From: Kangiella aquimarina DSM 16071
GTDB lineage: Bacteria; Pseudomonadota; Gammaproteobacteria; Enterobacterales; Kangiellaceae
Length of the DNA stretch: 64,000 bases
Direction: 5' to 3'
Assembly: GCF_000374105.1 (NCBI RefSeq)
Contig: NZ_KB893650.1
Span: 1,769,145 to 1,833,144, forward strand
The notes under the pieces were generated by a model. The model made no database searches. It saw nothing but the letters and a program-made list of their open reading frames with translations, and was not told the origin of the DNA. The position numbers and the translations under genes are program-made. Each line of letters opens with the position of its first letter. The first letter of the stretch is position 1. Positions 42,598 through 57,140 of this stretch are shown piece after piece.

Positions 42598-45060
42598 TTA
42601 TCGTGCGTTGTATAAGCGAGTCATTGCAACCGCAAAGCCAGCGCGAGTCATTTGATTATAAGGATTAAACTGAGCTTTGATGGTTGGCTCCAGGTCAAAC
42701 ATACCCTGCTCTACCGAAAATTGAGCATTCAGAATACCCAGGTCAAGTGCAAGCTGGACATAACCTTTGAACTCTTGAGGGATCATGGCCTGATCTTCAA
42801 GTACCACTCTGTCAGCACCAAAGATTGCAGTAATATCACCCGAGAAGCTATTGGCGAGTTCCTCCAGTCCAAGCGACTGAACCAGTGAATAAGCTACATC
42901 CAATTTGCTTACACCCGCGTTTGGGTTAAACATGTTGCCGTTTGCTGTCATAACTGGATCGGTTACTTGCGCTCTATCGCGAAGTGGAGAACCGCTCTGT
43001 GTTACAGCATTAATTGCTGAAGTATCGATGGTTACATCAATGAACTGAACACTATCTGCTGCATTTGACTGTCGAATACCGGCACCAAGTGTCAGATAGT
43101 CAGCCATTTGTGAGCGACTAATTACCACATCAGGTGCAAATCCATCGTCTAGTGCATCGACAAGTTGCTCGCTAACCGCAGCTTCAATGAAAGCCTGCGC
43201 AGGGTGACCAACAACATCATTGAGACCAACGAAGCCATCAGTGCGAGTGATTTTAACAACCGCATCAATTTCGCCCGGTAACGCATAACCATTAGTGGCA
43301 TTCACAGGATCAACATCGACTCCAGAGACTCCACCAATGCCATTGGCGCGCAATGTCCAGGTCCCGGCTTCCGCAGGAGCTGTTACAGCGATGTTCTCAC
43401 CCAAGACAGGCAGAGCAATGCTTGAGCCATAACGTTTGCCGCTAGGGCTGGTTAAAGACATTCCAACAGTATTTTCGGCAACATTGGCGCGAACCATCAA
43501 CAATGAAGCTTCATCATTTACTTCGAAAGTTACGCCTTCATTCTCACCAACAGGGCTAAATGGAACGGTAATCTCAAACTCGCCTGCAACGGATGTTTGC
43601 GCCGCTGCATTAAATTCACGTTGGATTTTCGCCGTTTCGCCAAAGCTTTTAGACTCATCAAGCACTGCTTTTACCGCAGCATAAGCATTCACATATCCGG
43701 CACCGCTTTCCCATGGCTCAAGTCCCGGCATATTGGTTGCCGTTTCCTGAAGAATGCGCTTAACTTCACGCCAGGTCAGATTAGGATTGGCTTCAAGCAT
43801 TAACGCAACAATACCTGATGCATGAGGTGCTGCCATCGAAGTACCACTCATAACCGTGTAATAAGGTACATGGTTGGCATCCATTACTTCGCTATCAGAA
43901 GTAATGCTTAATGCACTCAGACTTGATAATGATGCGCGCGCTGAAATAACATCCACACCAGGTGCAGTAATCGTTGGGCGATCTTCCCAGGTGAAGGTTT
44001 CGCCATCAACCACCGCTTGGCCTGTTTTACCTTTGACACCGCGTGAGCTGAAGTCGGCTAAATCGCCTTGCTTGTCACCTGCAGCAACTGTAATAACCCA
44101 TGGAGCCTTTTTGAAGTTACCAGTAATGGTCGCTTCGCCTGATCCTGAGTTACCCGCAGAAAAAACCACAATAACTCCATTATCACTCAAGGCTTTGGTT
44201 GCTACGTTGGTTGGATCGTCAGGATTGAAGTCAGTACCTGTGTCACCGGTATTACCAAACGAATTTGAAATGACTCGGATGTTGTAGTCAAACTGATGAG
44301 TTAAGGCATAATCAAAGCCGCCCAGCGTATCTAGAATAAATAAACCAGCACCTGAACCATAACCAATCAGTTTCGCGCCCGGAGCTACACCTTGGTAAAG
44401 ACCGCTCGACATGGCACCGTTACCACCGATAATACCCGCAACATGCGAACCATGGCCGCCGCCGATATCAGTGTTGGCAACATCTTCCTGATAAGTAATA
44501 GGCAGAATGCCTGACAAGGAATTCAAATTAACCTGAGCCAAAACATTTTGCGTGACATGATTGGGATACTTAATGTCGCTATGAGTGCCATCAACACCTG
44601 AATCGTTGATAACTACACCGATGCCACGGCCAGAATATGGCATACCCATATTACGCATTGACTGATCATCGCGTAAACGATCAACGCCTGTCAGCTCTGT
44701 GGAGCCATCATTTTCCAGAGTTAATGGTGCGTTGTACCAGACTGAACGAACATCATCACGCGAATAGATTGCATCAATTTGTTGCTTAGTTGCTGTAATA
44801 CCCACCATCGGCAGACTGTTGAAACTTACACCGCTACTGACACCCAGGCTTTCAAGCGCCTGTAGTTGTGAAAGCGACGCAGGCTCATTGCCTTCAAAGG
44901 TTACGATAACCTCGAACACTTCTTGCTCAGTTGCCTCTGACAAAAGGTCAGAAAGCTGTGGACCAATTGATTTGGCATGACCTGCCACCGCAGATATACC
45001 TAAACCGGCAGCCAAAATGGCTCCGTAAATAGGCTTTGTTTTTAAGTTGAATTTACTCAT
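42598..45060 (-). CDS. Secreted S8 subtilisin-family peptidase with C-terminal SLH-like repeats (paralogue 1)
   Basis: An 820-residue exported protease. I choose ATG 45060 (MSKFNLKTKPIYGAILAAG), which begins a signal peptide. An inhibitor-I9-like prodomain is followed by the catalytic triad: D153 (INDSGVDGTH), H203 (GGHGSHVAG) and S408 (MSGTSMAAPH). The C-terminal ~200 residues contain S-layer-homology-like units (HPAQAFIEAAVSEQLVDALDDG, then ISRSQMADYLTLG and later FNPNAGVSKLDVAYSLVQSLG). A 16-bp box, TTGGGGAAAACCCCTA, lies 60 bp upstream of the start. It is closely related to the gene at 52292. Confidence 0.9.
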   Translation of the reverse strand: MSKFNLKTKPIYGAILAAGLGISAVAGHAKSIGPQLSDLLSEATEQEVFEVIVTFEGNEPASLSQLQALESLGVSSGVSFNSLPMVGITATKQQIDAIYSRDDVRSVWYNAPLTLENDGSTELTGVDRLRDDQSMRNMGMPYSGRGIGVVINDSGVDGTHSDIKYPNHVTQNVLAQVNLNSLSGILPITYQEDVANTDIGGGHGSHVAGIIGGNGAMSSGLYQGVAPGAKLIGYGSGAGLFILDTLGGFDYALTHQFDYNIRVISNSFGNTGDTGTDFNPDDPTNVATKALSDNGVIVVFSAGNSGSGEATITGNFKKAPWVITVAAGDKQGDLADFSSRGVKGKTGQAVVDGETFTWEDRPTITAPGVDVISARASLSSLSALSITSDSEVMDANHVPYYTVMSGTSMAAPHASGIVALMLEANPNLTWREVKRILQETATNMPGLEPWESGAGYVNAYAAVKAVLDESKSFGETAKIQREFNAAAQTSVAGEFEITVPFSPVGENEGVTFEVNDEASLLMVRANVAENTVGMSLTSPSGKRYGSSIALPVLGENIAVTAPAEAGTWTLRANGIGGVSGVDVDPVNATNGYALPGEIDAVVKITRTDGFVGLNDVVGHPAQAFIEAAVSEQLVDALDDGFAPDVVISRSQMADYLTLGAGIRQSNAADSVQFIDVTIDTSAINAVTQSGSPLRDRAQVTDPVMTANGNMFNPNAGVSKLDVAYSLVQSLGLEELANSFSGDITAIFGADRVVLEDQAMIPQEFKGYVQLALDLGILNAQFSVEQGMFDLEPTIKAQFNPYNQMTRAGFAVAMTRLYNAR

Positions 45061-45120
45061 GTTAGGAAACCCCCATTGGATTGAGGGTTTGAGCATCCCA
45101 CAAAGTAGTAAAAAGAATAA

Positions 45121-45136
45121 TTGGGGAAAACCCCTA
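45121..45136 (-). promoter_or_regulatory. S8-peptidase box 1
   Basis: TTGGGGAAAACCCCTA (plus-strand reading) is an inverted repeat of G4 and C4 around A4 with a conserved TA end. Near-identical boxes precede the other two S8 genes at 54858 and 57102/57125, at 60-100 bp from the start codon. It is a candidate operator for a shared regulator, perhaps the LuxR-type response regulator encoded next door. Confidence 0.65.
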
Positions 45137-45180
45137 TTGGAAGTTAGTGATAGTACCCTCGTATGGCCAGCTTGCTGAAT

Positions 45181-45582
45181 TTAAATAAATTTATAGCCAG
45201 CAATTAGGCCAAAAGGAACTGAGGTTATTAAAGCTATAACCAAGCCATAGATTCCAAAACCAAACATTTCACTGGGGCTAGCTTTAAAGTATAAAGCCCC
45301 TATTATCGCTGAAAGAATAAATCCAACGATTACACTAATAAATATCAAGGTAACTTGATTCAGGATGAATGTTTTTTTAATTGGCTTAATGATTGCGAAA
45401 AATGTTAATAGCATTGCGGGATAGATTATGGCTAATGTCACAAAGATAATGATGTGAGCGATCCAATCTCCTGGTAAAAATATTAAAGCAACTACCCAAA
45501 GTAACAGGCAGCTAATTAAAGGAGCGACAACTAATGCCAGTTTTTCTTTCGAACTAGTAGAATTTATATCTGTTACCATCAT
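45181..45582 (-). CDS. Small four-helix membrane protein at the end of the signalling operon
   Basis: A 133-residue hydrophobic protein with four predicted transmembrane helices (around residues 13-33, 40-62, 75-98 and 108-130) and no recognisable family. Its first codon begins directly after the response-regulator stop (no gap), so it belongs to the kinase/FHA/two-component operon. It could be a membrane anchor or sensor partner for the soluble histidine kinase, but this is only inferred from position. Confidence 0.7.
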   Translation of the reverse strand: MMVTDINSTSSKEKLALVVAPLISCLLLWVVALIFLPGDWIAHIIIFVTLAIIYPAMLLTFFAIIKPIKKTFILNQVTLIFISVIVGFILSAIIGALYFKASPSEMFGFGIYGLVIALITSVPFGLIAGYKFI

Positions 45583-46221
45583 TTAAACCAACAGATTATG
45601 TTTCGCTGCATAGCGAACTAACTCAGCTGTATTGGATACGCCAAGTTTTTCCAGCACTTTTCCTCGATGATTTTCAGCAGTTTTCACGCTGATATCTAAC
45701 GCTCGGGCAATGTCCTTTGTAGTCTTACCGTCAACTACTAGATGAAACACTTCACGCTCACGCTGGGTTAAGTTTTTATAAGGATCTTGCCATTCTTGAT
45801 CGGGTTGCGAGTACTGAGTTGCCAAAACACTGGCTGCATACTGACTGTAGTAGGTTTTGCCACTGGCCAGCGCTTTAACCGCATCAATCAACTCTTCACT
45901 GGCACTGTCTTTTAATAAATAACCTGAAGCGCCGGCACGAACCATGTGAATGACATATTCCTGTTCTTCATGCATGGTCAAAACCAGAATTTTGCATTCC
46001 GGTAATTTGTCATGAATTCGCTTAACAACTTCCATGCCATTAAGTTCAGGCATTGAAATATCGATAACCGCTACCTGCGGCCTGGTTTCGAATGCTTTCT
46101 CAACAGCTTCCAGACCATTGGAAGCCTCCGCTACAACAGTGCAATCAGCGTCTTTACTTAATAAACTGACCAGACCTTGTCTAAGAATCGTATGATCATC
46201 AGCCAGCATGACACGTATCAT
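45583..46221 (-). CDS. NarL/FixJ (LuxR-type) response regulator
   Basis: A 212-residue DNA-binding response regulator. Receiver domain: acidic pair D8/D9, phospho-acceptor D54 in VAVIDISMPELNG, and a Lys in YLLKDSASEEL (~residue 104). A GerE/LuxR helix-turn-helix occupies the C-terminal 65 residues (NLTQREREVFHLVVDGKTTK ... ISVKTAENHRGKV). It overlaps the histidine-kinase gene by 4 bp, the usual coupling for a cognate pair. It is the best candidate for binding the conserved box upstream of the three S8 peptidase genes, since LuxR-type regulators read short inverted repeats. Confidence 0.93.
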   Translation of the reverse strand: MIRVMLADDHTILRQGLVSLLSKDADCTVVAEASNGLEAVEKAFETRPQVAVIDISMPELNGMEVVKRIHDKLPECKILVLTMHEEQEYVIHMVRAGASGYLLKDSASEELIDAVKALASGKTYYSQYAASVLATQYSQPDQEWQDPYKNLTQREREVFHLVVDGKTTKDIARALDISVKTAENHRGKVLEKLGVSNTAELVRYAAKHNLLV

Positions 46222-46961
46222 GTTAATGCACCTCCCTCACCTATTGACCCCGTGATGACTACTTTAATTTCACAGCCTTCACCCGGTTGAGACTCAACCA
46301 TCAATTGACCACCAAATGCTGCAACTCGATCACGCATGGCAGACAGGCCAAAGCCTTCAGCAGATTCAGATGTGTCTTGGGTCATACCCACGCCATTATC
46401 CTTAATTTTGATCACCAGCATCCGCTCGGTTGCAATTACCGTAATATCAATGTGGCTCGCTTTTGCATGCTTTATGGCATTTGTAATAGCTTCCTGCACC
46501 ACTCTGAAAACCAGCGTCTGTGTTTCATCATCAAGATTGACTGATAATTGCTCATGGAGATCAATCTTAATCGAGTTTCTTTCGCTCATCACACGGGATA
46601 ACCATTGCAACGCGGGAATCAAACCCAGGTCATCAAGAATTCTGGGGCGCATCAATCGTGATATTTCACGAGTATCACTAAGCGCCTGTCTAGCCAGAGT
46701 CAAAGCCTCATTAAGCTCCGCAGGGTCAGGTTCACCTTCCTTGTGCATTTGCTGTAATTGGTTAATTAAAGCGGTCAATAACTGCCCCACCCCGTCATGC
46801 AGTTCACGAGCAATATGCTTTCTCTCATCTTCCTGAACTCGCCATACTCGTTTCGCTAATGTGCGCATTTGCTGATTACCGCTAAGAAGTTCCTGTGCAA
46901 TCTTTTGCTGTTTCTGACTAAGTTCATTTACCAGCTCTGAAATATCTTTTTCACTATTCAT
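46218..46961 (-). CDS. Soluble HisKA_3-type histidine kinase
   Basis: A 247-residue cytosolic sensor kinase with no transmembrane helix or recognisable input domain. I choose ATG 46961 (MNSEKDISELVNEL) over the GTG at 46970; both overlap the upstream kinase gene's stop. A coiled-coil-like N-terminus is followed by the HisKA_3 box ARELHDGVGQLLTAL with phospho-acceptor H55, and an ATPase domain with VQEAITNAIKHA (N box), KDNGVGMT and FGLSAMRDRV. With no sensor domain, input must come from partner proteins, likely the upstream Ser/Thr kinase or FHA protein in the same operon. Confidence 0.9.
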   Translation of the reverse strand: MNSEKDISELVNELSQKQQKIAQELLSGNQQMRTLAKRVWRVQEDERKHIARELHDGVGQLLTALINQLQQMHKEGEPDPAELNEALTLARQALSDTREISRLMRPRILDDLGLIPALQWLSRVMSERNSIKIDLHEQLSVNLDDETQTLVFRVVQEAITNAIKHAKASHIDITVIATERMLVIKIKDNGVGMTQDTSESAEGFGLSAMRDRVAAFGGQLMVESQPGEGCEIKVVITGSIGEGGALT

Positions 46962-49900
46962 CGTTAACACTGAGCTCCATTAAGTCATCATCAAAAGCAA
47001 CAATGTTTTGTTGTTCTATAAATACCATACGAGAGTCCTCTGGTAGTTGCTTTAATAGATGATTAAGTTGTTGTTGTGCTCGTTGGCGATAAAGTGCTGG
47101 TGATTCACCTGAGTGTTCTACCAGTAAAGCCCGAAGGCGATTGAGCTGGAAGCTTCTCCAGTAATCTCCCATTCTTCGCAAAAGCTGGTCTGCCTCATTT
47201 AACGATTGCTCCAACCTTTTCCAATCATTATTAATGAAAGAATAGGCAGCTTCTAATTCTAATAGATAAATATATTCATATTGATGAAGGGCCATGTCAT
47301 AAAGGCGTATTTTTTCAACAAACTCAGGAAAACCTTCTTTATTTGTTTTGAGCGAGCGCCTGGCCTGGTCAAGTAAATATCGTAATTTGGTTGCCTCAGG
47401 TATGTTAGTTTTATCAAACATATCAAGCAGAAATTGTTCAGACTGTAACGATTGTTCCTCAGTGCGTAACAGCAAGGTCTTAAAGTAAAACTGTTGCTCT
47501 ACACTTCCTTTATCAACCACCAAATCATTTATTGTTTGCAGCTGCTCCTGTAAAGCACCGTGATTACCTGTGAGTGAATGCCAGTCTGCCAGCCATAAGC
47601 CAAACTCAATCACGCCGCGGATATCATTACGTTCCTGCAATTGTTGATAAAGGGAATCTAACTTAGGAAGACTTTGCTCGAAATTACCCTGCAAAAAACT
47701 GAGTTTTGCGAGATAAGCTTCAGCCACTAGAGCCTCTTCAAATAATCCCAGCTCTCTAGAGTCCTGCAATGCTTTTTCAAATATGAAATAAGCACTGCGC
47801 CAATTCCCCATAGCTAGTTCCATCTGACCAAGGTTTTCGCGAACCCTGATAACGCCAACGGGATCCTGAACTTTTTGATACGCCTGCTCGGCCTGCTGCC
47901 AATAAACTAAAGCATTTTCTGGGTTTGAAAGTAAGTAGTAAATAAAGCCGATATTGTTCATGCTCTCAGCTTTAAGCCATTCGTCTCCAAGATTGATACG
48001 CAGGGATAATGCCTGACGATAATTCTCAAGCGCTTTTTCATACAGACCCTGTTCCTCATCAATGATACCCATTTCATTAAAGGCGTTGGCCTTGCCTTCC
48101 ATGTCATTTAAGGACTCATAAACAGCAAGGCTCTGCTCAAGATAATTAGTAGCCTCTTCGTGCTGTCCCTGAATAGAGTGAACAGATGCAAGGTTTGACA
48201 TACTCGTTGCCATACCATTTTGATCATCGGCTGTTTTACGCTTGTATAACCCCTGTTCATAATAGTCTTGTGCAAGCGCTAAATTACCAAGACGCTGGTA
48301 TGCAACCCCCATTGCATTCAACACATCACCTTCTAAATTAATGTCTTTGAGTTTTTTAGCGATGACCAGTGCTTTTACCAAATAGTCATCAACAGCTGTT
48401 TGTGCGTCACCTGACCAAATTGATACTTTAGCCAATTCAAACCAGGCGCCAGGGTGATTAGGATCGAGAGCTACGACTTGTTGAAGCGTCTGTTCAGCTT
48501 TTGGAAACTGTTGCGTTGAAACGTAGAGTTCAGCAAGTGAAAATTTAATATCAATGTTTAAAGGATATTGTTCAATAAGACTAAGATAATCTATCTCAGC
48601 CTGGTCAAACTTTTCAGCAAGCTCATTTAATATGGCGGTTGAATGGATATGGATGAAGCTTTGAGCTGGACTTAACGATTGGGATTTGGCAAATGCACTT
48701 TCCGCCTGAGAATTTTCTCCCATGTTTAAGTACACCTGACCAAGCTCAAACCATAAGTGTTCGGAATCAGGCTGCTGATTAATTAACTCAGCAAGCTTGG
48801 TTGCTGCCTGTTGCCATTCACTATTCTTAATTAATTCTTGTACTGCACTTTGTAGAATAAAAGCTTCACTGCTTTCTATTGATGGCTGTTGGTTAATCTT
48901 CAAAGCCTGATTGAGATCAGAAACTAGCTGCCTAACTATTGAGTCAGCGGAATCGGACTGCATGACAACTTCAGAAACCGGTTGCTTATTTACAGTATTG
49001 CCGGATATGGATAACACTTCCACAAGCAATGTATTTTGATCGCTACTGGAAGCTATCACCCTTGCATTAACAATTTTGTTTACTTTAAGTAAATCAGCTA
49101 GCAGAAGTATCTGGTTATCATTTAGGGTGGATTGGTAGCCTAGCAAATCAAGAGTTTCTAATACACGCTCATTATTTACCAGTCTTAACTCTGGGTATTG
49201 AGTTAGCTGATAATTAAGATAGTCAGGAATACCGTATTTAACCCAGCTATCAACAGACTGGCCTCGTGTCTCACTCTCAAAAGGTAAAATTGCCAGCGAG
49301 GTATATTGCGATGAAACTATTGGCTGATTTTGATAACGCCACCAGAAAACTGCAGCCAGTGAAATAAGGATAACTGCAGCGACCAAACCAAAAACCTTAT
49401 TTGCTCTGGCTTTAGGTGGCTGCTTGATGAAGGCATAATCAATCGCTAACTGTAAATCTACAGCTGATGGGTAGCGTGAATTACTGTATGGAGAAATTAG
49501 CTTAAGTACTACCGACTTAAATTTTTTGAAATCTGATCTTGCTGCTGGAAACTCTTTGGTTCCTTTCTGTTTTTGCTCAATAAGTATATCAAGTGAATTT
49601 CCATCAAAAGGCAATGTATTACATAAAATTTGATAGAGAATGACTCCAACGGCATAGAGATCGATGCTACTGCTTATTTCATTTCTTTGCAGGTATTCGG
49701 GTGGCAAGTATTGTGGCGTTCCACTAATAACGCCCTGTTCCTTTGATTCAGATAATACTGCAAGGCCAAAATCTGCCAGATAAAGCTGATCATTATGAGC
49801 GATAAGGATATTTTCTGGCTTAATGTCGCGATGATAAATATTATGACTCTCGGCAAAACTCAGGGCACTGATAATCTGATTAATATAGAGCTCAATCTGA

Positions 49901-50319
49901 CTTTCTGAGAAAGTATCACCCGATTTATTATTGTGCTCCATTTTCTGTTCAAGGCTTTCCCCTTCAATCCAGTCCATGGTAAAAAAGTGTAGTTCGTTAT
50001 CGCTATAGTATTCATGCACCCGAACGATATTGGGATGGGAAAGTTGCCTTAGGAGGAGAATTTCTTTTTTGAAGTCAGCAAGGGCTTGCTGATTTTTTGA
50101 GATAACCGGATGCAAGACTTTTAGCGCAACTATGACATCGAGCTGCAAGTCTTTTACTTTATAGACAGCACCAAATCGACCTACACCCTGTAATTTTTCA
50201 ACTTGGAAACGTCCAGCCAGAAGGGTTCCAGTTTCAAGAATTTCAAAGTCTTCAATTACTTGAGTCTTTGATAAGTCCCCAGAATCATTTTGGCTTTGCT
50301 TCGGGTCATCATTCACCAT
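46954..50319 (-). CDS. Ser/Thr protein kinase with transmembrane helix, TolB-like segment and TPR repeats
   Basis: An 1121-residue membrane kinase. The N-terminal kinase domain shows the glycine loop GVGRFGAVY (residues 45-53), K67 in VALKVLH, HRD at 163-165 in YHRDIKPENIL, and DFGLAVL, then GTPQYLPPE; it should be active. A single transmembrane helix (~residues 309-328, GLVAAVILISLAAVFWW) separates it from an external part: a TolB-like domain (LAILPFESETRGQS) and ~15 TPR units (for example AESAFAKSQSLSPAQSFIHI, ALENYRQALSLRINLGDEW). It is a sensor-type layout, with the TPRs in the periplasm. It lies 20 bp after the FHA gene and overlaps the histidine-kinase gene. Confidence 0.92.
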   Translation of the reverse strand: MVNDDPKQSQNDSGDLSKTQVIEDFEILETGTLLAGRFQVEKLQGVGRFGAVYKVKDLQLDVIVALKVLHPVISKNQQALADFKKEILLLRQLSHPNIVRVHEYYSDNELHFFTMDWIEGESLEQKMEHNNKSGDTFSESQIELYINQIISALSFAESHNIYHRDIKPENILIAHNDQLYLADFGLAVLSESKEQGVISGTPQYLPPEYLQRNEISSSIDLYAVGVILYQILCNTLPFDGNSLDILIEQKQKGTKEFPAARSDFKKFKSVVLKLISPYSNSRYPSAVDLQLAIDYAFIKQPPKARANKVFGLVAAVILISLAAVFWWRYQNQPIVSSQYTSLAILPFESETRGQSVDSWVKYGIPDYLNYQLTQYPELRLVNNERVLETLDLLGYQSTLNDNQILLLADLLKVNKIVNARVIASSSDQNTLLVEVLSISGNTVNKQPVSEVVMQSDSADSIVRQLVSDLNQALKINQQPSIESSEAFILQSAVQELIKNSEWQQAATKLAELINQQPDSEHLWFELGQVYLNMGENSQAESAFAKSQSLSPAQSFIHIHSTAILNELAEKFDQAEIDYLSLIEQYPLNIDIKFSLAELYVSTQQFPKAEQTLQQVVALDPNHPGAWFELAKVSIWSGDAQTAVDDYLVKALVIAKKLKDINLEGDVLNAMGVAYQRLGNLALAQDYYEQGLYKRKTADDQNGMATSMSNLASVHSIQGQHEEATNYLEQSLAVYESLNDMEGKANAFNEMGIIDEEQGLYEKALENYRQALSLRINLGDEWLKAESMNNIGFIYYLLSNPENALVYWQQAEQAYQKVQDPVGVIRVRENLGQMELAMGNWRSAYFIFEKALQDSRELGLFEEALVAEAYLAKLSFLQGNFEQSLPKLDSLYQQLQERNDIRGVIEFGLWLADWHSLTGNHGALQEQLQTINDLVVDKGSVEQQFYFKTLLLRTEEQSLQSEQFLLDMFDKTNIPEATKLRYLLDQARRSLKTNKEGFPEFVEKIRLYDMALHQYEYIYLLELEAAYSFINNDWKRLEQSLNEADQLLRRMGDYWRSFQLNRLRALLVEHSGESPALYRQRAQQQLNHLLKQLPEDSRMVFIEQQNIVAFDDDLMELSVNDE

Positions 50320-50339
50320 TGAAGCTTAACCTTATAGTG

Positions 50340-51236
50340 TTAATGCACGAGTTGTAATATCGGTTTATTTAACAGGCTATCATAACTTCTTGATTCTGGC
50401 ACCAGATTCATGAGATTGGTTATTTGATTTTGTAAAACAATCGCCTCGGAACTTAAAGTTATTTGCTGACTAATTATGGATAGGATATCCATATCTAGTT
50501 CAGTCAACACTTTGGTAGATTCTTTGCTGTCTGTATAGACCACACCAATTAACTGATTATCAGAAAATAACGGTACACAGGCCAATGCAGCAATTTGCTT
50601 GCGCTGAACACTCTCACGCTTTGCCAGCATGGCATCTTGACTGACATCCATTGCTACTACGGAATTAGCGGTATTGATGGCTTTCATCATAGCACCGACA
50701 CTTCCTTCGAATGAGCGGTTATCAAAGTCAGCTGAAGACATGCCAAGTACAGCACCGACTTTTAAGCTTTGGAAATCGTTTCCGAGCATCACCAGGCCAC
50801 GTTGAGTACCCATTAAACTGATAACGGAATTCAGTTGCTCCTGCAGGGTTTCGACTAACATGCCATCTGCTACATGATTAATAGATTTAGTCTGCTCCAA
50901 ACGCCAATGGTTATGCGCCTCAATAGCTTGTAGCTGTTGTGCAGTCTTTGCTTCAAATAAACAATCTACGTCACCCACAGAAATCAGCTCATTGCCGTTC
51001 AGCAAGCTTGCCTCAACTTTTACCCCATTAACTTTAGTACCATTCTGGCTCGACTGATCATTCAAGTGCCAGCCATCGGCTAGATGAGACATAAGCGCAT
51101 GTTGTCTGGAAACGGTTGGATGTTTTAAGACCAGGTCACAGGAGCTAGCCCGACCAATTCGATAGTCGGACCGCTCATAGAGAAATGCTTCAGTTGCGGG
51201 TTGGTCTGAATAACAGACCGTTATCTTTGCAGGCAT
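50340..51236 (-). CDS. FHA-domain protein with C-terminal GAF-like domain
   Basis: A 298-residue cytosolic protein. The N-terminal FHA domain (residues ~20-95) has the phosphothreonine-binding residues: GRASSCDLVL, SRQHA and NGTKVNG. The C-terminal part, from MGTQRGLVMLG through ACVPLFSDNQLIGVVYTDS, has a GAF fold signature. FHA domains bind phosphothreonine peptides, so it is likely a substrate or partner of the Ser/Thr kinase encoded 20 bp downstream. It may carry the signal to the histidine kinase. Confidence 0.88.
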   Translation of the reverse strand: MPAKITVCYSDQPATEAFLYERSDYRIGRASSCDLVLKHPTVSRQHALMSHLADGWHLNDQSSQNGTKVNGVKVEASLLNGNELISVGDVDCLFEAKTAQQLQAIEAHNHWRLEQTKSINHVADGMLVETLQEQLNSVISLMGTQRGLVMLGNDFQSLKVGAVLGMSSADFDNRSFEGSVGAMMKAINTANSVVAMDVSQDAMLAKRESVQRKQIAALACVPLFSDNQLIGVVYTDSKESTKVLTELDMDILSIISQQITLSSEAIVLQNQITNLMNLVPESRSYDSLLNKPILQLVH

Positions 51237-51252
51237 AGTCGTCTATTCAAAT

Positions 51253-52089
51253 TTAGTTAACAAGACGTAGGCTGAATCTAAGCGTATTGGCATACGCAAT
51301 CAGCTCACCGGCAACATTGTCGATATCACGACTTGAGCGCCAGACATTGGGAATATCGGCTGGATCTGCCTGTTCAATGATTCGACTAAATTCATCTACT
51401 TTATTACTGGCCAAGGTGTAGTTCTGTTGAGTAATCAGTTGCTGTACTTCGCTCAACTTACTGCTTAACTGGCTATAAAGCACTGGGTCAATCTGGGTTG
51501 AGAAAGTTGCAAGACTGTTACTTAAACGGTTGTACTTGGTGTTCACAACCGTAAGAACTGGTCTTAAGTCAGCAACAATCAGAAACTGCGAGAACTTACC
51601 TGTTGTTCCGCGCGCACGATAACTCCCGGAACCCATGGTTGCAGTAATATCTTCAAACTGACCATTTAGAGGCGCCTTGAAGAATCGCAGTGGTGTACCC
51701 GGCAAGTAATCTAAATTATGGGTATGGATATCTACTGTAGCCAATCCTGAAAAAGCGAACCCTTTATTTGATGGGGGCTCAATCGTAATCAGCATTGGAA
51801 AAGCAGCCTGAAGATTGATATTGGTAACATCTGAAAGTCTATTAAGGATATTTATATCCGTAATATCAATTAACTCTGCAGTGATACCGATGTTATCTGC
51901 GGTTAATCCCACAGAATTTTCAAAAGTTAAAGTTAAATCAGCTGATACGTTCCCTGTAAGATTGATTACGGCTTCAACTTTGTCACCCTGGACCGTAAGT
52001 TCTACTGGATTAGCTTTACTGGCGATCGAGCCAAAGCTCATGAATAGAACGACTACGCTTAAGGCTAGAGCTTTAAAAGCTGACATCAT
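51253..52089 (-). CDS. Secreted protein of unknown function, first gene of the signalling operon
   Basis: A ~278-residue protein with a signal peptide (MMSAFKALALSVVVLFMSFG, cleavage near SKA/NP) starting at 52089, with GAGGT upstream; an ATG further upstream at 52152 is unlikely. The mature part is strand-rich (VELTVQGDKVEAVINLTGNVSADLTLTFEN), resembling a cell-surface or Ig-like fold, with a helical C-terminus (LSEVQQLITQQNYTLASNKVDEF). It may belong to a DUF family found near S8 peptidases (DUF6689-like), but I am not sure. It is 16 bp before the FHA gene. Confidence 0.6.
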   Translation of the reverse strand: MMSAFKALALSVVVLFMSFGSIASKANPVELTVQGDKVEAVINLTGNVSADLTLTFENSVGLTADNIGITAELIDITDINILNRLSDVTNINLQAAFPMLITIEPPSNKGFAFSGLATVDIHTHNLDYLPGTPLRFFKAPLNGQFEDITATMGSGSYRARGTTGKFSQFLIVADLRPVLTVVNTKYNRLSNSLATFSTQIDPVLYSQLSSKLSEVQQLITQQNYTLASNKVDEFSRIIEQADPADIPNVWRSSRDIDNVAGELIAYANTLRFSLRLVN

Positions 52090-52203
52090 CTTTACCTCGC
52101 AACGTGAGAGAAATATTTCATTAGATATAACTAATGCAACACTCCATTTCAAAATACTTAAATTTATGCCCTAAAGCAAGAATGCATTACAACAAATTGA
52201 TTA

Positions 52204-52229
52204 AAAAGTAGGCATCCCTGCCTACTTTT
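52204..52229 (-). terminator. Rho-independent terminator of S8 peptidase paralogue 2
   Basis: A perfect 11-bp stem (52204-52214 with 52219-52229) with a 4-base loop TCCC, followed on the minus strand by T's. It lies 63 bases past the peptidase stop and just before the signalling operon. Confidence 0.85.
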
Positions 52230-52291
52230 CTCGTATATTCAATAGTAGTTAACAAATTTCTGAATGAGTTGCATCCAATTAATAAGCTAAC

Positions 52292-54757
52292 TTATTGATA
52301 ATACGAATCGTAAAAGCGACCAATTAATACAGCGTACTCCGCACGGCTAACAGTTTCAGCAGGCTCGAAGTAAGCGACCAATTTAGACTGTAGGTCAAAT
52401 GGTCCCTGCTCAACATCAAAGCGTACGCCAACTATTGATAGATCCAGTGCTAACTGGACATAGCCACGTAGCTCAGCTGGAATATCATTCTGGTCAAGAA
52501 CAGGAATGACTTCACCATTGTAATCGACCGTTACATCACCGCTGAAAGCCTTTGCTTCAGTTTCCAAACCTAAGCTTTGTACTAATGAATAAGCAAGCTC
52601 GACTCTACTGACATTGTCATTTGGGCGGAACTTATCGCCATTGCTCAACATGACTGGCTGTTGAGTTTGAACGCGGTCTTTTAACGCTCCTCCTTCAGCA
52701 CCAGCAGATTCCGCATAAGGAGCTAGATCAGATCCTATATCCGTAAAGTTAACAGCTTGCTCGCCTAATAGATCTCGATACTGTCTTACGGCAGCACCCA
52801 TCACTAAATACTGAGCCAATTCTTTACGCTTCAAAGCACGATCAGGACGGAAGAACTTGTCATTAAAGCTATCAACCAAGCGCTCACTGGTAGCAAACTG
52901 AATAGCTTTTTCCGCTGGGTGTCCGCCAATATCATCAAGACCTTCGTAACCACCTGAAGTAAAGATGCCAATTTGGCCACTGACTACTTCTGGTACGCCT
53001 GGTCCATTTGTTGCTCCTGTTGGGTCAGCTTCTACCCCAGAAAGCGATGTTAAACCATATGCGGAAAGTTTCCATGTACCCTCTTGAGCTGGCGCAGAGA
53101 CACGCATTGAAGTCGTTAACACTGGTAGCGTCAAGTTTCCGAAGTACTCGGTACCATCCGGAGCTTCTAATTTTAGTTTGATGGTATTTGCTAGAGACTC
53201 AGCAGAAGCAGAAATCCAGACAGCATCAGGGCCCACAGTAAACTCATGAACTTCTGGCTCTCCTACTGGAGAATAAAGCACTTCAAACGCTTCTGGATCG
53301 GTAGGTGGTAGTACAATGGCATTACCGTTAAAGGTGTTAAAGTTGTTCACCGTAACTTTATGACCAGTGTCGTAATTAAGTGCTGCGGCAACTGCGGCAT
53401 AGGCATTAACATAGCCGGCCCCTACTTCCCAGGTTTCATAACCAGGCATGTTAGTAGCAGTTTCCTGAATCAGGCGCTTTGTTTCAAGCGGTGTCAGGTT
53501 TGGATTAGCCTCAAGCATCAGAGCAATAATGCCGGCGACATGCGGCGTAGCCATCGAAGTACCGGAAATCATGGTGTAGTAAGGAAGATATTCAGTTTCG
53601 ATAGCATCAATATCAGCATCGCCACCATTTGAAACCAGGTTGGTTTTGGCGCGAGTTGAAATAATATCGACCCCCGGAGCAACCACCGAAACCTCATTAC
53701 GGTAAGTCCACTCGGTTCCATCAGGCATAGTAAATGTACCTGTCTCATCGCGCTGACCACGAGAAGAAAAGTCAATCAATGTACCCTGCTTGGTACCAGC
53801 ACCAACAGACATACCCCAAGGGATCTGTGCATAAGGGTTGTGAGTATCTTCACCTGGGCCATCATTACCAGCAGCAAAAACAGAAATCATGCCTAACTTA
53901 TAAGCTTTGTACGATGCTACAGAAATAGGACCATTTGGTTCATATTTACCGCTTGAGCCCCACGAATTGCTCATCACACGAATGGGCGAATTGAAGTCAT
54001 AGATATGGGTAATGGCATAGTCATACCCACCAAGCGCATCAAGAATTGATAAGCCCGCTCCAGAACCATAGCCAACCAATTCAGCATCAGGAGCTGCGCC
54101 TTTGTACTTACCATCTGAGTTTGTACCCCAACCTGCTACCGTACCGGCACAGTGAGTACCATGACCAACATTAAGATCCGTATTCAACTGCCCCTCAATC
54201 CATGCTCCGCTGAAGCCTGTGAGAGATAACGCTTGTGCGTGTGTGAGAGCTTGAACATTTTCAACAACCTTAGTTCCGAACTGCAGGTCATCATGAGTCG
54301 CATCGATACCAGAGTCATTGACCATGACGGTAACGCCCTTACCGGTAAAGCTAATGCCATTTGTTTGCATAAACTCATCACTTTGCAACTTTTCTGCACC
54401 GGTTAATTCGCGAGCTTCAGCGTTGAAATATTTCAGGTTACGGTTAGCAAACACAGAACGGACACCATCCATTTTGCTGATTTGCTCAATCTGTAGCGGA
54501 GTTGCAACAACACCGATTATTGGCAGAGACTGGAACTGAACACCTTCAGTAATTCCCAAGTCCATCAATGACTGGATTTGCTGAGGTGCTAACTGATCAA
54601 GTTGATCGAAAGTCACCACAGCCATAGTGCTGTCAGTAACTGACATGGTCTGTAAGTTCTGCTGCAGCTCACTACCGATAACGGCTTCTGCTGCTGCATT
54701 CATGCTAAAGCCAGCTAATGTAGCCGCTAGCGCTAGTCGTTTGATTTGTGTGTTCAT
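52292..54757 (-). CDS. Secreted S8 subtilisin-family peptidase with C-terminal SLH-like repeats (paralogue 2)
   Basis: An 821-residue exported protease with signal peptide (MNTQIKRLALAATLAGFSMNA, cleavage AAA/EA). Catalytic triad: D148 (VNDSGIDATH), H199 (VGHGTHCAG) and S401 (ISGTSMATPH). The C-terminus has S-layer-homology-like units (HPAEKAIQFATSERLVDSFN, then RALKRKELAQYLVMG; later FRPNDNVSRVELAYSLVQSLG). These parallel the gene at 42598 along almost the whole length, so the two are recent paralogues. A TTAGGGAAAACCCCTA box lies 100 bp upstream. Confidence 0.92.
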   Translation of the reverse strand: MNTQIKRLALAATLAGFSMNAAAEAVIGSELQQNLQTMSVTDSTMAVVTFDQLDQLAPQQIQSLMDLGITEGVQFQSLPIIGVVATPLQIEQISKMDGVRSVFANRNLKYFNAEARELTGAEKLQSDEFMQTNGISFTGKGVTVMVNDSGIDATHDDLQFGTKVVENVQALTHAQALSLTGFSGAWIEGQLNTDLNVGHGTHCAGTVAGWGTNSDGKYKGAAPDAELVGYGSGAGLSILDALGGYDYAITHIYDFNSPIRVMSNSWGSSGKYEPNGPISVASYKAYKLGMISVFAAGNDGPGEDTHNPYAQIPWGMSVGAGTKQGTLIDFSSRGQRDETGTFTMPDGTEWTYRNEVSVVAPGVDIISTRAKTNLVSNGGDADIDAIETEYLPYYTMISGTSMATPHVAGIIALMLEANPNLTPLETKRLIQETATNMPGYETWEVGAGYVNAYAAVAAALNYDTGHKVTVNNFNTFNGNAIVLPPTDPEAFEVLYSPVGEPEVHEFTVGPDAVWISASAESLANTIKLKLEAPDGTEYFGNLTLPVLTTSMRVSAPAQEGTWKLSAYGLTSLSGVEADPTGATNGPGVPEVVSGQIGIFTSGGYEGLDDIGGHPAEKAIQFATSERLVDSFNDKFFRPDRALKRKELAQYLVMGAAVRQYRDLLGEQAVNFTDIGSDLAPYAESAGAEGGALKDRVQTQQPVMLSNGDKFRPNDNVSRVELAYSLVQSLGLETEAKAFSGDVTVDYNGEVIPVLDQNDIPAELRGYVQLALDLSIVGVRFDVEQGPFDLQSKLVAYFEPAETVSRAEYAVLIGRFYDSYYQ

Positions 54758-54857
54758 TAATACACTACCCCTTTGTGTGTTTAATAGATTGATGTTTCAT
54801 CATCCATTGCAAGTCATTTTTGACTTATTAGCTATCGGTGCAATTACTTAGATTCCC

Positions 54858-54873
54858 TTAGGGAAAACCCCTA
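54858..54873 (-). promoter_or_regulatory. S8-peptidase box 2
   Basis: TTAGGGAAAACCCCTA differs from box 1 at one of 16 positions. It lies 100 bp upstream of the paralogue-2 start codon, and a partly overlapping palindrome CCCTTAGGG adjoins it on the left, possibly a second half-site arrangement. Confidence 0.65.
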
Positions 54874-54922
54874 TCAGAGATTGTTATTGTTTGAACTTTG
54901 TTAATGTGATTTCGCAGGAATT

Positions 54923-54944
54923 AAAAAAGAGGGCCCGAAGGCCC
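54923..54944 (-). terminator. Rho-independent terminator of S8 peptidase paralogue 3
   Basis: A GC-rich 5-bp stem GGGCC/GGCCC (54931-54935 with 54940-54944) with a CGAA tetraloop follows an A-run (54923-54928) on the plus strand, giving hairpin plus T-run on the minus strand, 20 bases beyond the stop. Confidence 0.8.
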
Positions 54945-54964
54945 CCAACGCCTCTCACGAGCAG

Positions 54965-57025
54965 TTACTGGATCAGGTTCGATACTTCTACATCTATCGT
55001 GTAGTCAGTCGAAACACTAATATATCCGTTCACACGTAAGGTGTAGTCACCAGCCTGTTCTGGTCTGAATGAAATGACCTCAGGGTTATCCAGAGATGCA
55101 CTGCTAGCAACAACATTTCCTTCAGCATCTAGCATTTGGAAATCGAGGTCAGCCACACCGCCCCAGCTCAATACTGCATCAATGGCTACTGCATCAGCAC
55201 CAACGCTAATTACATGATCATTGAACTGGATGTTTTCAGCCGAAGGGCCAATGTTACCCTCAATAACCTGCTGGTCTGTAGTAATAGAGGTCCCGTTGTC
55301 CACTAGTTGACCATCCATTTTCAGGCCATCAAAGTTAATGGTGCCTTCAACGTTTTTGATAGACAGGCTGTGAACCTGTGAAGTATTTAAATCGCGCAGA
55401 ACAAAAGCCTTTGCTGTTGACTCCGGAGCATAGAAGTCGATAACTCCTTTGCTTTGACCATTCAGGAAAACTTCACCATGGCCACCTTTTGAGTTGGCTG
55501 TGTAAAGAATCTGAATGCTATCACCGATGAAGTTAAACATGACTTCAGCATTGTTACGGCGGCTTTGCTGATAGCTACCCTCAGTACTTTCAGAGTCAGA
55601 CTTAGTGCTCCAGCGTGAAACATAGTCAATCATAGAATCATTCTCTGAAACCACTTTCCAGTTACCCTGAGATGACCATTTTGTTTCGCCAGCTAGGAAC
55701 TCAGCACGCTTACCTTCTGTAACGCGAGCAAGCTCTATCGCTGCTTTAACATTGATGTAACCGCCACCCACTTGATGGAATTCAAAACCTTCCATTGGGT
55801 CAGCTGTATCACGAATGATTTCTTCAATCTGGTCAGGAGATAGGTCAGGATTAACCTCAAGAAGTAAGCCTGCTACACCAGCAACGAATGGAGTAGCCAT
55901 AGAAGTACCACTCATTCCGGCATAATAAACATCATACTCTGGATACTCAGGGTCAAGCACTGGACCTAATAGTGGCAGAACGGTATTCAATGCTTTTGTA
56001 GAGATGATATTACTACCTGGTGCAGTCACGTCAGGAGCTTTGAATTCATCTCCGGCAACACCGCGACTTGAAAAATCTGCTAAACCGCGATTTTCTGTAC
56101 CCGCTGCAACATTAATAGTCCATGGAGCAACACCATAAGGGTTAAGAGTGTTATCACCTGGGCCGTCGTTACCCGCAGCGAAAGTTACAATGATGCCCTG
56201 TTTGTAAGCTTCGTATGATGCTTGATTGGTTGGGCTATTAGGGTCAAAGTTGGCGCCGCCCGAAGTTCCCCAGCTATTGGTGATTACATCAATGCCATAT
56301 TTATCTTTGTTGCCAATTGCATAATCAAAACCCGCAATTGCATAAAGAATCGAGATGGCATCACCAGCACCTAAGCCAACCAGTTTTGCGTCAGGAGCAA
56401 TACCATCATGGTAATTTGCACGGCGAGCATCATCGGCAGAAGCTGCACCGGTACCTGCAACCGTACCTGCTACGTGGGAGCCGTGACCTGAGCTGGTATC
56501 ACTGTTTGGAACACCCTCAAGAAACACATTCAAACCGCCAGCCAAATCGAGATCGCCAACGATTTTAACGTTTTGTACAACTTTAGAACCAAACTGTAAA
56601 TCAGGGTGTGTAGCATCAACTCCTGAATCTAATACAGCAATGGTTGCACCGCGGCCCGTGACATTTTCAACATCATGTACATAATGGCCGCCAGTGATTT
56701 CACCAGAGTTGTAGTTGTAATATTTTAAAGGCGCATCATAGTAGATACTTTTAACGCGCTCATCTTTAGCGAGTGCATTAATTTGCGCTTTAGTCAAAGT
56801 TGCACCAGCCATAGGCAAGGTTTTCATCGCCAGGTATGGCTGACCAAGGTTAGCCATCACATCATTCAGTTGTGATTGGTCATGGGTAGTCACAATAACT
56901 TTGGTTGGCGTTAACGCTGTAGGTAACATTTCAGTTAACTCAGGTCCGATAATAGCGTCTGCGTGAGCGGTCCCTGCTACGGCTGCCAAAACACTGGCTG
57001 TGATAATTGATACAGTTGGTTTCAT
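54965..57025 (-). CDS. Secreted S8 subtilisin-family peptidase with C-terminal PPC-like domain (paralogue 3)
   Basis: A 686-residue exported protease with a signal peptide (MKPTVSIITASVLAAVAGTAHA). Triad: D133 (VLDSGVDATH), H181 (SGHGSHVAG) and S375 (MSGTSMATPF). In place of the SLH-like repeats of its two neighbours it has a different C-terminal part: a beta-rich ~130-residue domain (QGNWKVVSENDSMIDYVSRW, VMFNFIGDSIQILYTANSKG) and a final pre-peptidase-type beta-sandwich (LDFQMLDAEGNVVASSASLD, PEQAGDYTLRVNGY). Two S8-peptidase boxes precede it. Confidence 0.92.
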   Translation of the reverse strand: MKPTVSIITASVLAAVAGTAHADAIIGPELTEMLPTALTPTKVIVTTHDQSQLNDVMANLGQPYLAMKTLPMAGATLTKAQINALAKDERVKSIYYDAPLKYYNYNSGEITGGHYVHDVENVTGRGATIAVLDSGVDATHPDLQFGSKVVQNVKIVGDLDLAGGLNVFLEGVPNSDTSSGHGSHVAGTVAGTGAASADDARRANYHDGIAPDAKLVGLGAGDAISILYAIAGFDYAIGNKDKYGIDVITNSWGTSGGANFDPNSPTNQASYEAYKQGIIVTFAAGNDGPGDNTLNPYGVAPWTINVAAGTENRGLADFSSRGVAGDEFKAPDVTAPGSNIISTKALNTVLPLLGPVLDPEYPEYDVYYAGMSGTSMATPFVAGVAGLLLEVNPDLSPDQIEEIIRDTADPMEGFEFHQVGGGYINVKAAIELARVTEGKRAEFLAGETKWSSQGNWKVVSENDSMIDYVSRWSTKSDSESTEGSYQQSRRNNAEVMFNFIGDSIQILYTANSKGGHGEVFLNGQSKGVIDFYAPESTAKAFVLRDLNTSQVHSLSIKNVEGTINFDGLKMDGQLVDNGTSITTDQQVIEGNIGPSAENIQFNDHVISVGADAVAIDAVLSWGGVADLDFQMLDAEGNVVASSASLDNPEVISFRPEQAGDYTLRVNGYISVSTDYTIDVEVSNLIQ

Positions 57026-57101
57026 GGTTTGGTCCTCGTAGTCAAAATAATAATTTTTAGGTCTCGACTACGACTATGCACAAAGCCAATGAAATCAGGT
57101 A

Positions 57102-57117
57102 TTGGGTAAAGCCCCTA
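57102..57117 (-). promoter_or_regulatory. S8-peptidase box 3a
   Basis: TTGGGTAAAGCCCCTA, a further copy of the 16-bp box, lies 76 bp upstream of paralogue 3. It differs from box 1 at two positions, both inside the spacer region or next to it. Confidence 0.6.
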
Positions 57118-57124
57118 GATCATG

Positions 57125-57140
57125 CAGGGGTTTTCCCCTA
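57125..57140 (-). promoter_or_regulatory. S8-peptidase box 3b
   Basis: CAGGGGTTTTCCCCTA lies 7 bp beyond box 3a. It shares the G4-N4-C4-TA frame with the others, the spacer being T4 rather than A4. Two tandem boxes suggest cooperative binding. Confidence 0.55.

Follow-up and report, generated by a model that had tools for sequence, protein, structure and literature searches.

A palindromic box before secreted S8 peptidase genes of Kangiella aquimarina and its probable NarL-type regulator in a kinase/FHA cassette

The DNA analyzed here is a stretch of 64,000 nucleotides from Kangiella aquimarina DSM 16071 (contig NZ_KB893650.1, positions 1,769,145 to 1,833,144), referred to as the window. Between positions 42598 and 57140 it encodes three secreted S8 peptidases, designated as S8A, S8B, and S8C, and a set of signalling proteins between S8A and S8B. 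A 16-bp palindromic box lies upstream of each peptidase gene. The genes, boxes, and predicted promoter elements are as follows.

42598 to 45060, minus strand: S8A, secreted S8 peptidase with an SLH domain (PF00082, PF00395), start probably at Met13
45092 to 45097, minus strand: predicted -10 element of S8A, GATGCT, 3 of 6 matches to TATAAT, 23 bp after the box
45121 to 45136, minus strand: S8A box, TAGGGGTTTTCCCCAA on the gene strand
45181 to 45582, minus strand: small membrane protein; among the annotated loci, matches occur only in near Kangiella relatives
45583 to 46221, minus strand: NarL/LuxR-type response regulator (PF00072, PF00196), recognition helix KTAENHRGK, the proposed box-binding activator
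46218 to 46970, minus strand: HisKA_3 histidine kinase, no sensor domain recognised (Pfam)
46954 to 50319, minus strand: Ser/Thr kinase with a TPR C-terminus (Pkinase and TPR), N-terminal tail motif TQVI
50340 to 51236, minus strand: FHA-GAF protein, with G28, R29, S43, and H46 invariant in 12 aligned proteins
51253 to 52089, minus strand: DUF6689 secreted protein (Pfam), a marker of the cassette, putative start at 52089
52292 to 54757, minus strand: S8B, secreted S8 peptidase with an SLH domain (Pfam)
54835 to 54850, minus strand: weak second box of S8B, TAAGTAATTGCACCGA, offset by 23 bp
54858 to 54873, minus strand: S8B box, TAGGGGTTTTCCCTAA on the gene strand
54965 to 57025, minus strand: S8C, secreted S8 peptidase (Pfam S8), with a PPC match just under the cut-off
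57073 to 57078, minus strand: predicted -10 element of S8C, CATAGT, 23 bp after the proximal box
57102 to 57117, minus strand: proximal box of S8C, TAGGGGCTTTACCCAA
57125 to 57140, minus strand: distal box of S8C, TAGGGGAAAACCCCTG, 23 bp from the proximal box

The Pfam matches agree with the domains described in an earlier note on this DNA, and the secreted protein of that note is the DUF6689 protein; two details changed, as the small membrane protein is not part of the core cassette and the start of S8A was moved. The open reading frame (ORF) of S8A was first drawn as 42598-45096. Because the ATG at 45096 overlaps the predicted -10 element, and a signal-peptide-like stretch begins at Met13 by eye, the start is probably at 45060, 61 bp from the box. 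The regulator scores 97.9 bits for PF00072 (Response_reg) and 69 bits for PF00196 (GerE), the domain pair of the NarL/FixJ type. The histidine kinase scores 50 bits for PF07730 (HisKA_3) and 63.4 bits for PF02518 (HATPase_c), which places it in the HisKA_3 class. The TPR part of the Ser/Thr kinase was placed outside the membrane by eye, from a single hydrophobic stretch. The SLH matches in S8A (42598-45096) and S8B (52292-54757) score 30-37 bits, and they are found here in secreted peptidases of a gammaproteobacterium.

Four boxes upstream of all three peptidases had been reported in the earlier note, and a pattern scan of the window located each of them exactly (45121, 54858, 57102, and 57125). 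On the gene strand, the box is a 6-4-6 palindrome, TAGGGG-N4-CCCCTA, from which the four sites differ by 0-2 mismatches. When up to 3 mismatches are allowed, 7 matches are present in the window against 2.5 expected, a number reached in 1 of 100 shuffles; the other three (2969, 25974, and 58532) have 2-3 mismatches and are chance-like. In the 2.68-Mb genome, exact TTRGGKAAARCCCCTA occurs only at three of the four sites, all at S8 genes, and a single additional site with one mismatch lies away from them. The box is real and far above chance.

Cassette loci were gathered by a histidine-kinase scan of genome contigs and by a search with PF20396. The gene set S8B-DUF6689-FHA/GAF-kinase-histidine kinase-regulator-S8A recurs in Kangiella, Colwellia, Cognaticolwellia, Pseudoalteromonas, and Marinicella. 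The peptidases are members of a conserved cassette. The order of FHA, kinase, histidine kinase, and regulator genes is constant in the great majority of the loci examined. In Aliidiomarina and Idiomarina, the signalling genes are present but have no S8 genes beside them. Regulator orthologues (at least 82% identity) are present in 12 of 20 Kangiella genomes. Across the order, 394 genomes gave 17 with PF20396, including one under the cut-off, and 369 genomes drawn from the class gave 3. Regulators of Kangiella share 78-80% identity with those of Colwellia or Pseudoalteromonas. This identity across genera, together with the patchy occurrence, suggests that the cassette moved horizontally, an argument drawn from distribution and identity rather than from a tree.

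The conservation of the box was counted in 30 cassette loci, 12 of them from Kangiella and the rest from genera such as Colwellia, Pseudoalteromonas, Marinicella, and Aliidiomarina, excluding second copies from the same genome and the incomplete locus L054. The best match to 12 fixed positions was taken within -350 to +150 of each ORF start, with up to 3 mismatches. By this measure, a box precedes 56 of 57 S8 genes but only 2 of 82 other genes (ACAD/M16/TatD, 0/22; Ser/Thr kinase/FHA, 2/60). Dinucleotide-shuffled S8 upstream sequences gave a box in 6.4 of 57 on average and 11 at most (40 trials). The earlier note had named the lack of the box before S8 genes in species that keep the operon as a point that would speak against it, and this is not what is seen. 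The single exception, S8A of G093, is an over-long ORF, and its corrected start is preceded by two sites with 3 and 4 mismatches, 23 bp apart.

The DUF6689 gene, itself a candidate target, has a box in 9 of 29 cases. The Aliidiomarina box is placed immediately upstream of DUF6689, in front of the operon of the regulator itself. In G003 and G212 the S8B gene is gone from the locus, and its box or box pair is kept 410-460 bp before DUF6689. Both arrangements would fit a box that drives the signalling operon as well.

The co-occurrence of box and regulator was examined with strict TAGGGGNWWNCCCYNR, with zero mismatches, a pattern chosen after the cassette boxes had been seen. The same pattern with one mismatch was dropped because it did not separate genomes with the regulator from those without. 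Strict boxes are present in all 12 Kangiella genomes with the regulator against 1 of 7 without it (Fisher p = 2.6e-4); G007, which is 55% complete, was excluded. Such a co-occurrence of box and regulator is what the earlier note had proposed to check. The 12 regulator-bearing genomes yielded 40 strict rows, 32 of them in the cassette, against 9 for the reversed-pattern control, and the seven others yielded 1 row against 0. When S8A was sought in the Kangiella genomes without the regulator, only weak S8 matches were found, the best at 40 bits.

It is likely that the cassette regulator binds the box and activates the S8 genes and its own operon, with the HisKA_3 kinase and a kinase/FHA input upstream. 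The signalling set very probably controls the secreted proteases, since in marine bacteria the cassette co-occurs with them and the same palindrome stands before them near their promoters. The regulator (45583-46221) would bind the 6-4-6 palindrome as a dimer abutting the -35 place, 23 bp upstream of the -10 hexamer, in a class II-like arrangement, and a second dimer would often sit 23 bp from the first. Once bound, it would activate the secreted S8 peptidases and the signalling operon. The adjacent HisKA_3 kinase is expected to phosphorylate the regulator. The input is probably given by the membrane Ser/Thr kinase with its TPR region, whose phosphorylated N-terminal T-x-x-[I/L] tail would recruit the FHA-GAF protein, and this protein may in turn control the histidine kinase. 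We infer the binding, the sign of regulation, the order of signal flow, and the nature of the signal. The earlier note had read the locus as a regulator that binds the box and couples extracellular signals to protease expression. The regulatory half of that proposal, in which the box goes with the cassette regulator, is well supported by sequence comparison: the box tracks the regulator across Kangiella and several other genera, the spacing to the -10 element is preferred, it adjoins unrelated S8 genes at other places of the same genomes, and the Aliidiomarina operon carries it too. The binding itself and the route from an extracellular signal stay at the level of prediction.

The kinase/FHA input is plausible. 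The catalytic Lys, HxD Asp, Asn, and DFG Asp are kept in 30 of 30 aligned cassette kinases, and the cassette kinase thus has the residues of an active Hanks-type kinase. A G-R pair, an S, and an H are the defining residues of the phosphothreonine-binding FHA site. The G, R, S, and H are invariant in the 12 cassette proteins aligned, and the domain accordingly has the residues for phosphothreonine binding. Before the kinase domain, 16-18 residues ahead of a [GNS]RF anchor, T-x-x-[I/L] is found in 27 of 30 distinct tails, against an average of 2.8 and a maximum of 10 of 30 when the tails are shuffled. The tails of L285 and L286 have TTVI at about the equivalent place with a different anchor, as judged by eye. 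The tail is a plausible docking site for FHA. Because Rad53 FHA1 is reported to bind a pTXXI motif (PMC4037201), it is a concrete hypothesis that the tail is autophosphorylated and that the FHA-GAF protein then reads it.

A substantial possibility, though the less probable one, is that the Ser/Thr kinase and the FHA-GAF protein act on secretion or another process and were merely co-inherited with the two-component pair. The histidine kinase could sense by itself, and the cassette of G212 has a kinase without the tail motif. On the other hand, the order of FHA, kinase, histidine kinase, and regulator genes is kept as noted above, no sensor domain is recognised in the histidine kinase, and the tail motif and the FHA residues are both conserved, all of which argue for an input from the kinase and FHA-GAF protein into the pair. 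An extended form of the proposal, offered tentatively and as somewhat short of probable, is a mobile hybrid relay: the kinase would phosphorylate its own tail, the FHA-GAF protein would read it and switch the sensor-less histidine kinase, and the regulator would activate any protease gene that had gained the box in front of its -10 element. If so, unrelated secreted subtilases would come under one external-signal control in each host.

The promoter anatomy was examined in 61 promoters, comprising 56 of S8 genes and 5 of Aliidiomarina operons. The proximal box was defined as the downstream one wherever a second box (up to 5 mismatches) lies at +23. At a distance of 23 bp downstream of the proximal box, 31 of 61 promoters have a hexamer with at least 4 of 6 matches to TATAAT, while other spacings from 14 to 33 gave 0-8. 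It was seen in 12 of 12 S8C promoters (all CATAGT), 13 of 21 S8B promoters (TCAAAT- or TTTAAT-like), and 4 of 5 Aliidiomarina operons (CAT plus three variable bases). Of the 61 promoters, 17 have a second box (up to 5 mismatches) at +23 and 11 have one at -23, compared with 1.4% when all offsets are considered. An extended -10 (TGn) was seen in 21 of 61 at 23 bp and also in 21 of 61 at 31 bp, and was left unused as evidence. Taken together, the anatomy suggests activation. Repression or mere tuning of the proteases by the box-bound regulator is unlikely. A protein adjacent to a promoter can repress, and the sign is unreadable from the sequence, but the box is located farther upstream than the -35 position, not over the -10 element or the start, and a -35 element with at least 4 of 6 matches is present in only 3 of 61 promoters, as expected for an activator-dependent promoter.

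All cassette regulators seen, even where overall identity falls to 43-48%, share the recognition helix KT[AV]E[NH]HR. A. indica and an Idiomarina metagenome-assembled genome (L285 and L286) each have a second cassette, which has diverged and has S8 genes at its flanks, with TCGGGG-type boxes and the helix KTAEHHRGK. This pairing hinted at co-variation of box and recognition helix, which is not claimed here; G093, with KTAENHRTR and the boxes TCGGGG and TGGGGG, fits no simple rule of this kind.

Outside the cassettes, some strict boxes adjoin S8 genes. The 14 genomes behind the other cassette loci contain 47 strict rows against 2 for the control, and at 9 of the 23 distinct sites outside the cassette or operon an S8 gene is the next gene on one side. 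They include genes for S8+PPC, S8+PA, and I9+S8 proteins, so the box appears to have been acquired by unrelated proteases. In G049, one off-cassette strict site also lies before an S8 gene. The carrier Pseudoalteromonas lipolytica likewise has a box at an S8C relative that is not part of its cassette. As a background, 40 Pseudoalteromonas genomes were picked by a best S8C relative below 80 bits, not by the absence of the regulator, and they yielded 29 strict rows against 21 for the control. With 1.5 kb inspected on each side, none of 28 sites there lies upstream of an S8 gene, 23 are inside long ORFs, and the one S8 match is a gene that contains the site; the same check on 15 carrier loci recovered 6 of the 7 with S8 genes. 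Among the best matches per genome in 80 Pseudoalteromonas genomes, S8C relatives above 250 bits are present only in the known carriers G400 and G401.

These comparisons bear on whether a different, genome-wide regulator binds the box while the cassette regulator acts elsewhere. Each of the 20 Kangiella genomes has 9-22 matches to the regulator query, and thus many other receiver-domain proteins are available for the role. It is nevertheless quite improbable, since such a regulator would have to accommodate strict boxes in just one of the seven Kangiella genomes lacking the cassette and the near-control count in the 40 Pseudoalteromonas genomes, which lack this S8 subfamily. In addition, no DNA-binding protein other than the regulator is recognised in the core cassette, and the operon of the regulator bears the box in Aliidiomarina.

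Several observations weigh against the proposed control of the proteases by the cassette and its box. All 7 distinct off-cassette Kangiella sites adjoin no S8 gene, and in G000 the strict box is missing from every S8 match beyond the cassette. The earlier note had treated occurrence at random genome positions as a point against it; the cassette sites are non-random, but 14 of the 23 off-cassette sites in the 14 genomes adjoin no S8 gene. They include sites at a TonB-receptor gene, a GGDEF-EAL gene, a ZapC gene, an FlhD neighbour, and a response-regulator-like gene, as well as in ORF interiors. G230 has 3 strict rows against 3 for the control; its DUF6689 gene is preceded only by a 3-mismatch box, a better box lies near its regulator gene, and no box was found before DUF6689 in G773. 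The box counts overstate independence, because the loci counted partly supplied the consensus, and because promoters within one gene class are homologous. If the best-scoring box alone is used, the hexamer is at 23 bp in 17 of 61 promoters, while the other spacings between 10 and 35 reach 11 at most. For S8A, at least 4 of 6 matches are reached in only 2 of 23 promoters, and 13 more have 3 of 6, mostly GATGCT or CATGCT. The kinase of G212 has no tail motif. Finally, the S8 subfamily and the cassette were gained or lost together in Kangiella and Pseudoalteromonas, and box and regulator are therefore inseparable there.

Two kinds of off-cassette sites may be noted in their own right. Three of the seven Kangiella sites (L269, L271, and L273; G001, G003, and G019) lie about 80 bp upstream of an orthologous lipoprotein-like protein of 171-173 amino acids, a candidate further target with no Pfam match in the two scanned. 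Strict boxes also precede the TonB-dependent receptor gene, identified with Pfam, in A. shirensis (L256) and a gene of similar appearance in Idiomarina (L258), probably its counterpart; these are possibly a nutrient-uptake branch.

An RNA hairpin or terminator in place of a protein site is very improbable: GGGG-N4-CCCC could pair as a short stem, but no T-run follows the box, the box would be absent from the S8 transcript because it lies upstream of the predicted -10 element, and the terminator-like hairpins of the region are separate elements. Two hairpins of the region are listed here.

52204 to 52229, minus strand: hairpin with a T-run between S8B and the signalling genes, read directly, a possible attenuator
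54929 to 54946, minus strand: terminator-like hairpin after S8C

It is possible that the former sets the ratio of protease to signalling-gene expression by attenuation. Palindromes such as CAGGGGATAGCCCCTG are found at the equivalent place in several other Kangiella loci.

Among known systems, NarX/NarL and DegS/DegU also pair a HisKA_3 kinase with a receiver-GerE regulator, as here, and DegU controls secreted proteases too; the present system differs in its sensor-less kinase and in the additional Ser/Thr kinase, FHA-GAF protein, and DUF6689 protein. In PknB/EmbR, Stk1/CovR, and PpkA/Fha1, the partner of a Hanks-type kinase is a phosphothreonine reader or a response regulator, whereas the present cassette unites such a kinase with an FHA protein, a histidine kinase, a regulator, and the protease targets. 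ComA of Bacillus subtilis belongs to a Gram-positive quorum response and is not known to have a Ser/Thr kinase or FHA partner. According to passages of PMC4797271, the ComA site consists of 6-nt half-sites in an inverted repeat, with an optimal 4-nt spacer and a second degenerate element nearby. ComA is thus similar as a NarL-type response regulator with the same hexamer inverted repeat and 4-nt spacer (PMC4797271). Its hexamer is TTGCGG instead of TAGGGG, and its second element is described there as a direct repeat with a 5-nt spacing, while a second palindrome at 23 bp is found here. The difference in the hexamer led us to reject orthology with ComA. By analogy, the system may work like the ComA or DegU systems, and it is filed as neither.

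Marine heterotrophs feed on protein through secreted proteases. A high potential for extracellular protein degradation in Kangiella is reported in parts of PMC6000758, where tandem S8A gene clusters are mentioned that may or may not include the present one; the terms two-component, regulator, histidine kinase, and promoter are absent from its main text. A literature search on the system, its genes, and its hosts, in which few subscription papers were covered, found no report of the box or the cassette. A NarL-type regulon with a possible kinase/FHA input of this kind is apparently undescribed. With a predicted regulator, site, promoter geometry, and regulon, the question can be tested in cultured species. 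If the kinase/FHA branch is true, the cassette would be a clear case of a eukaryote-like kinase and an FHA reader wired into a two-component system in one transferable unit.

The predicted structure of the DUF6689 protein has a mean pLDDT of 89 and consists of beta strands and C-terminal helices. Its comparison with solved structures gave only matches of low template modelling (TM) score, including ankyrin ZU5 domains at about 0.3. In G230, a box stands 23 bp before GATGCT (L175:300-315), upstream of a protein of 181 amino acids that adjoins the regulator gene. This protein has a signal-peptide-like start and no Pfam match.

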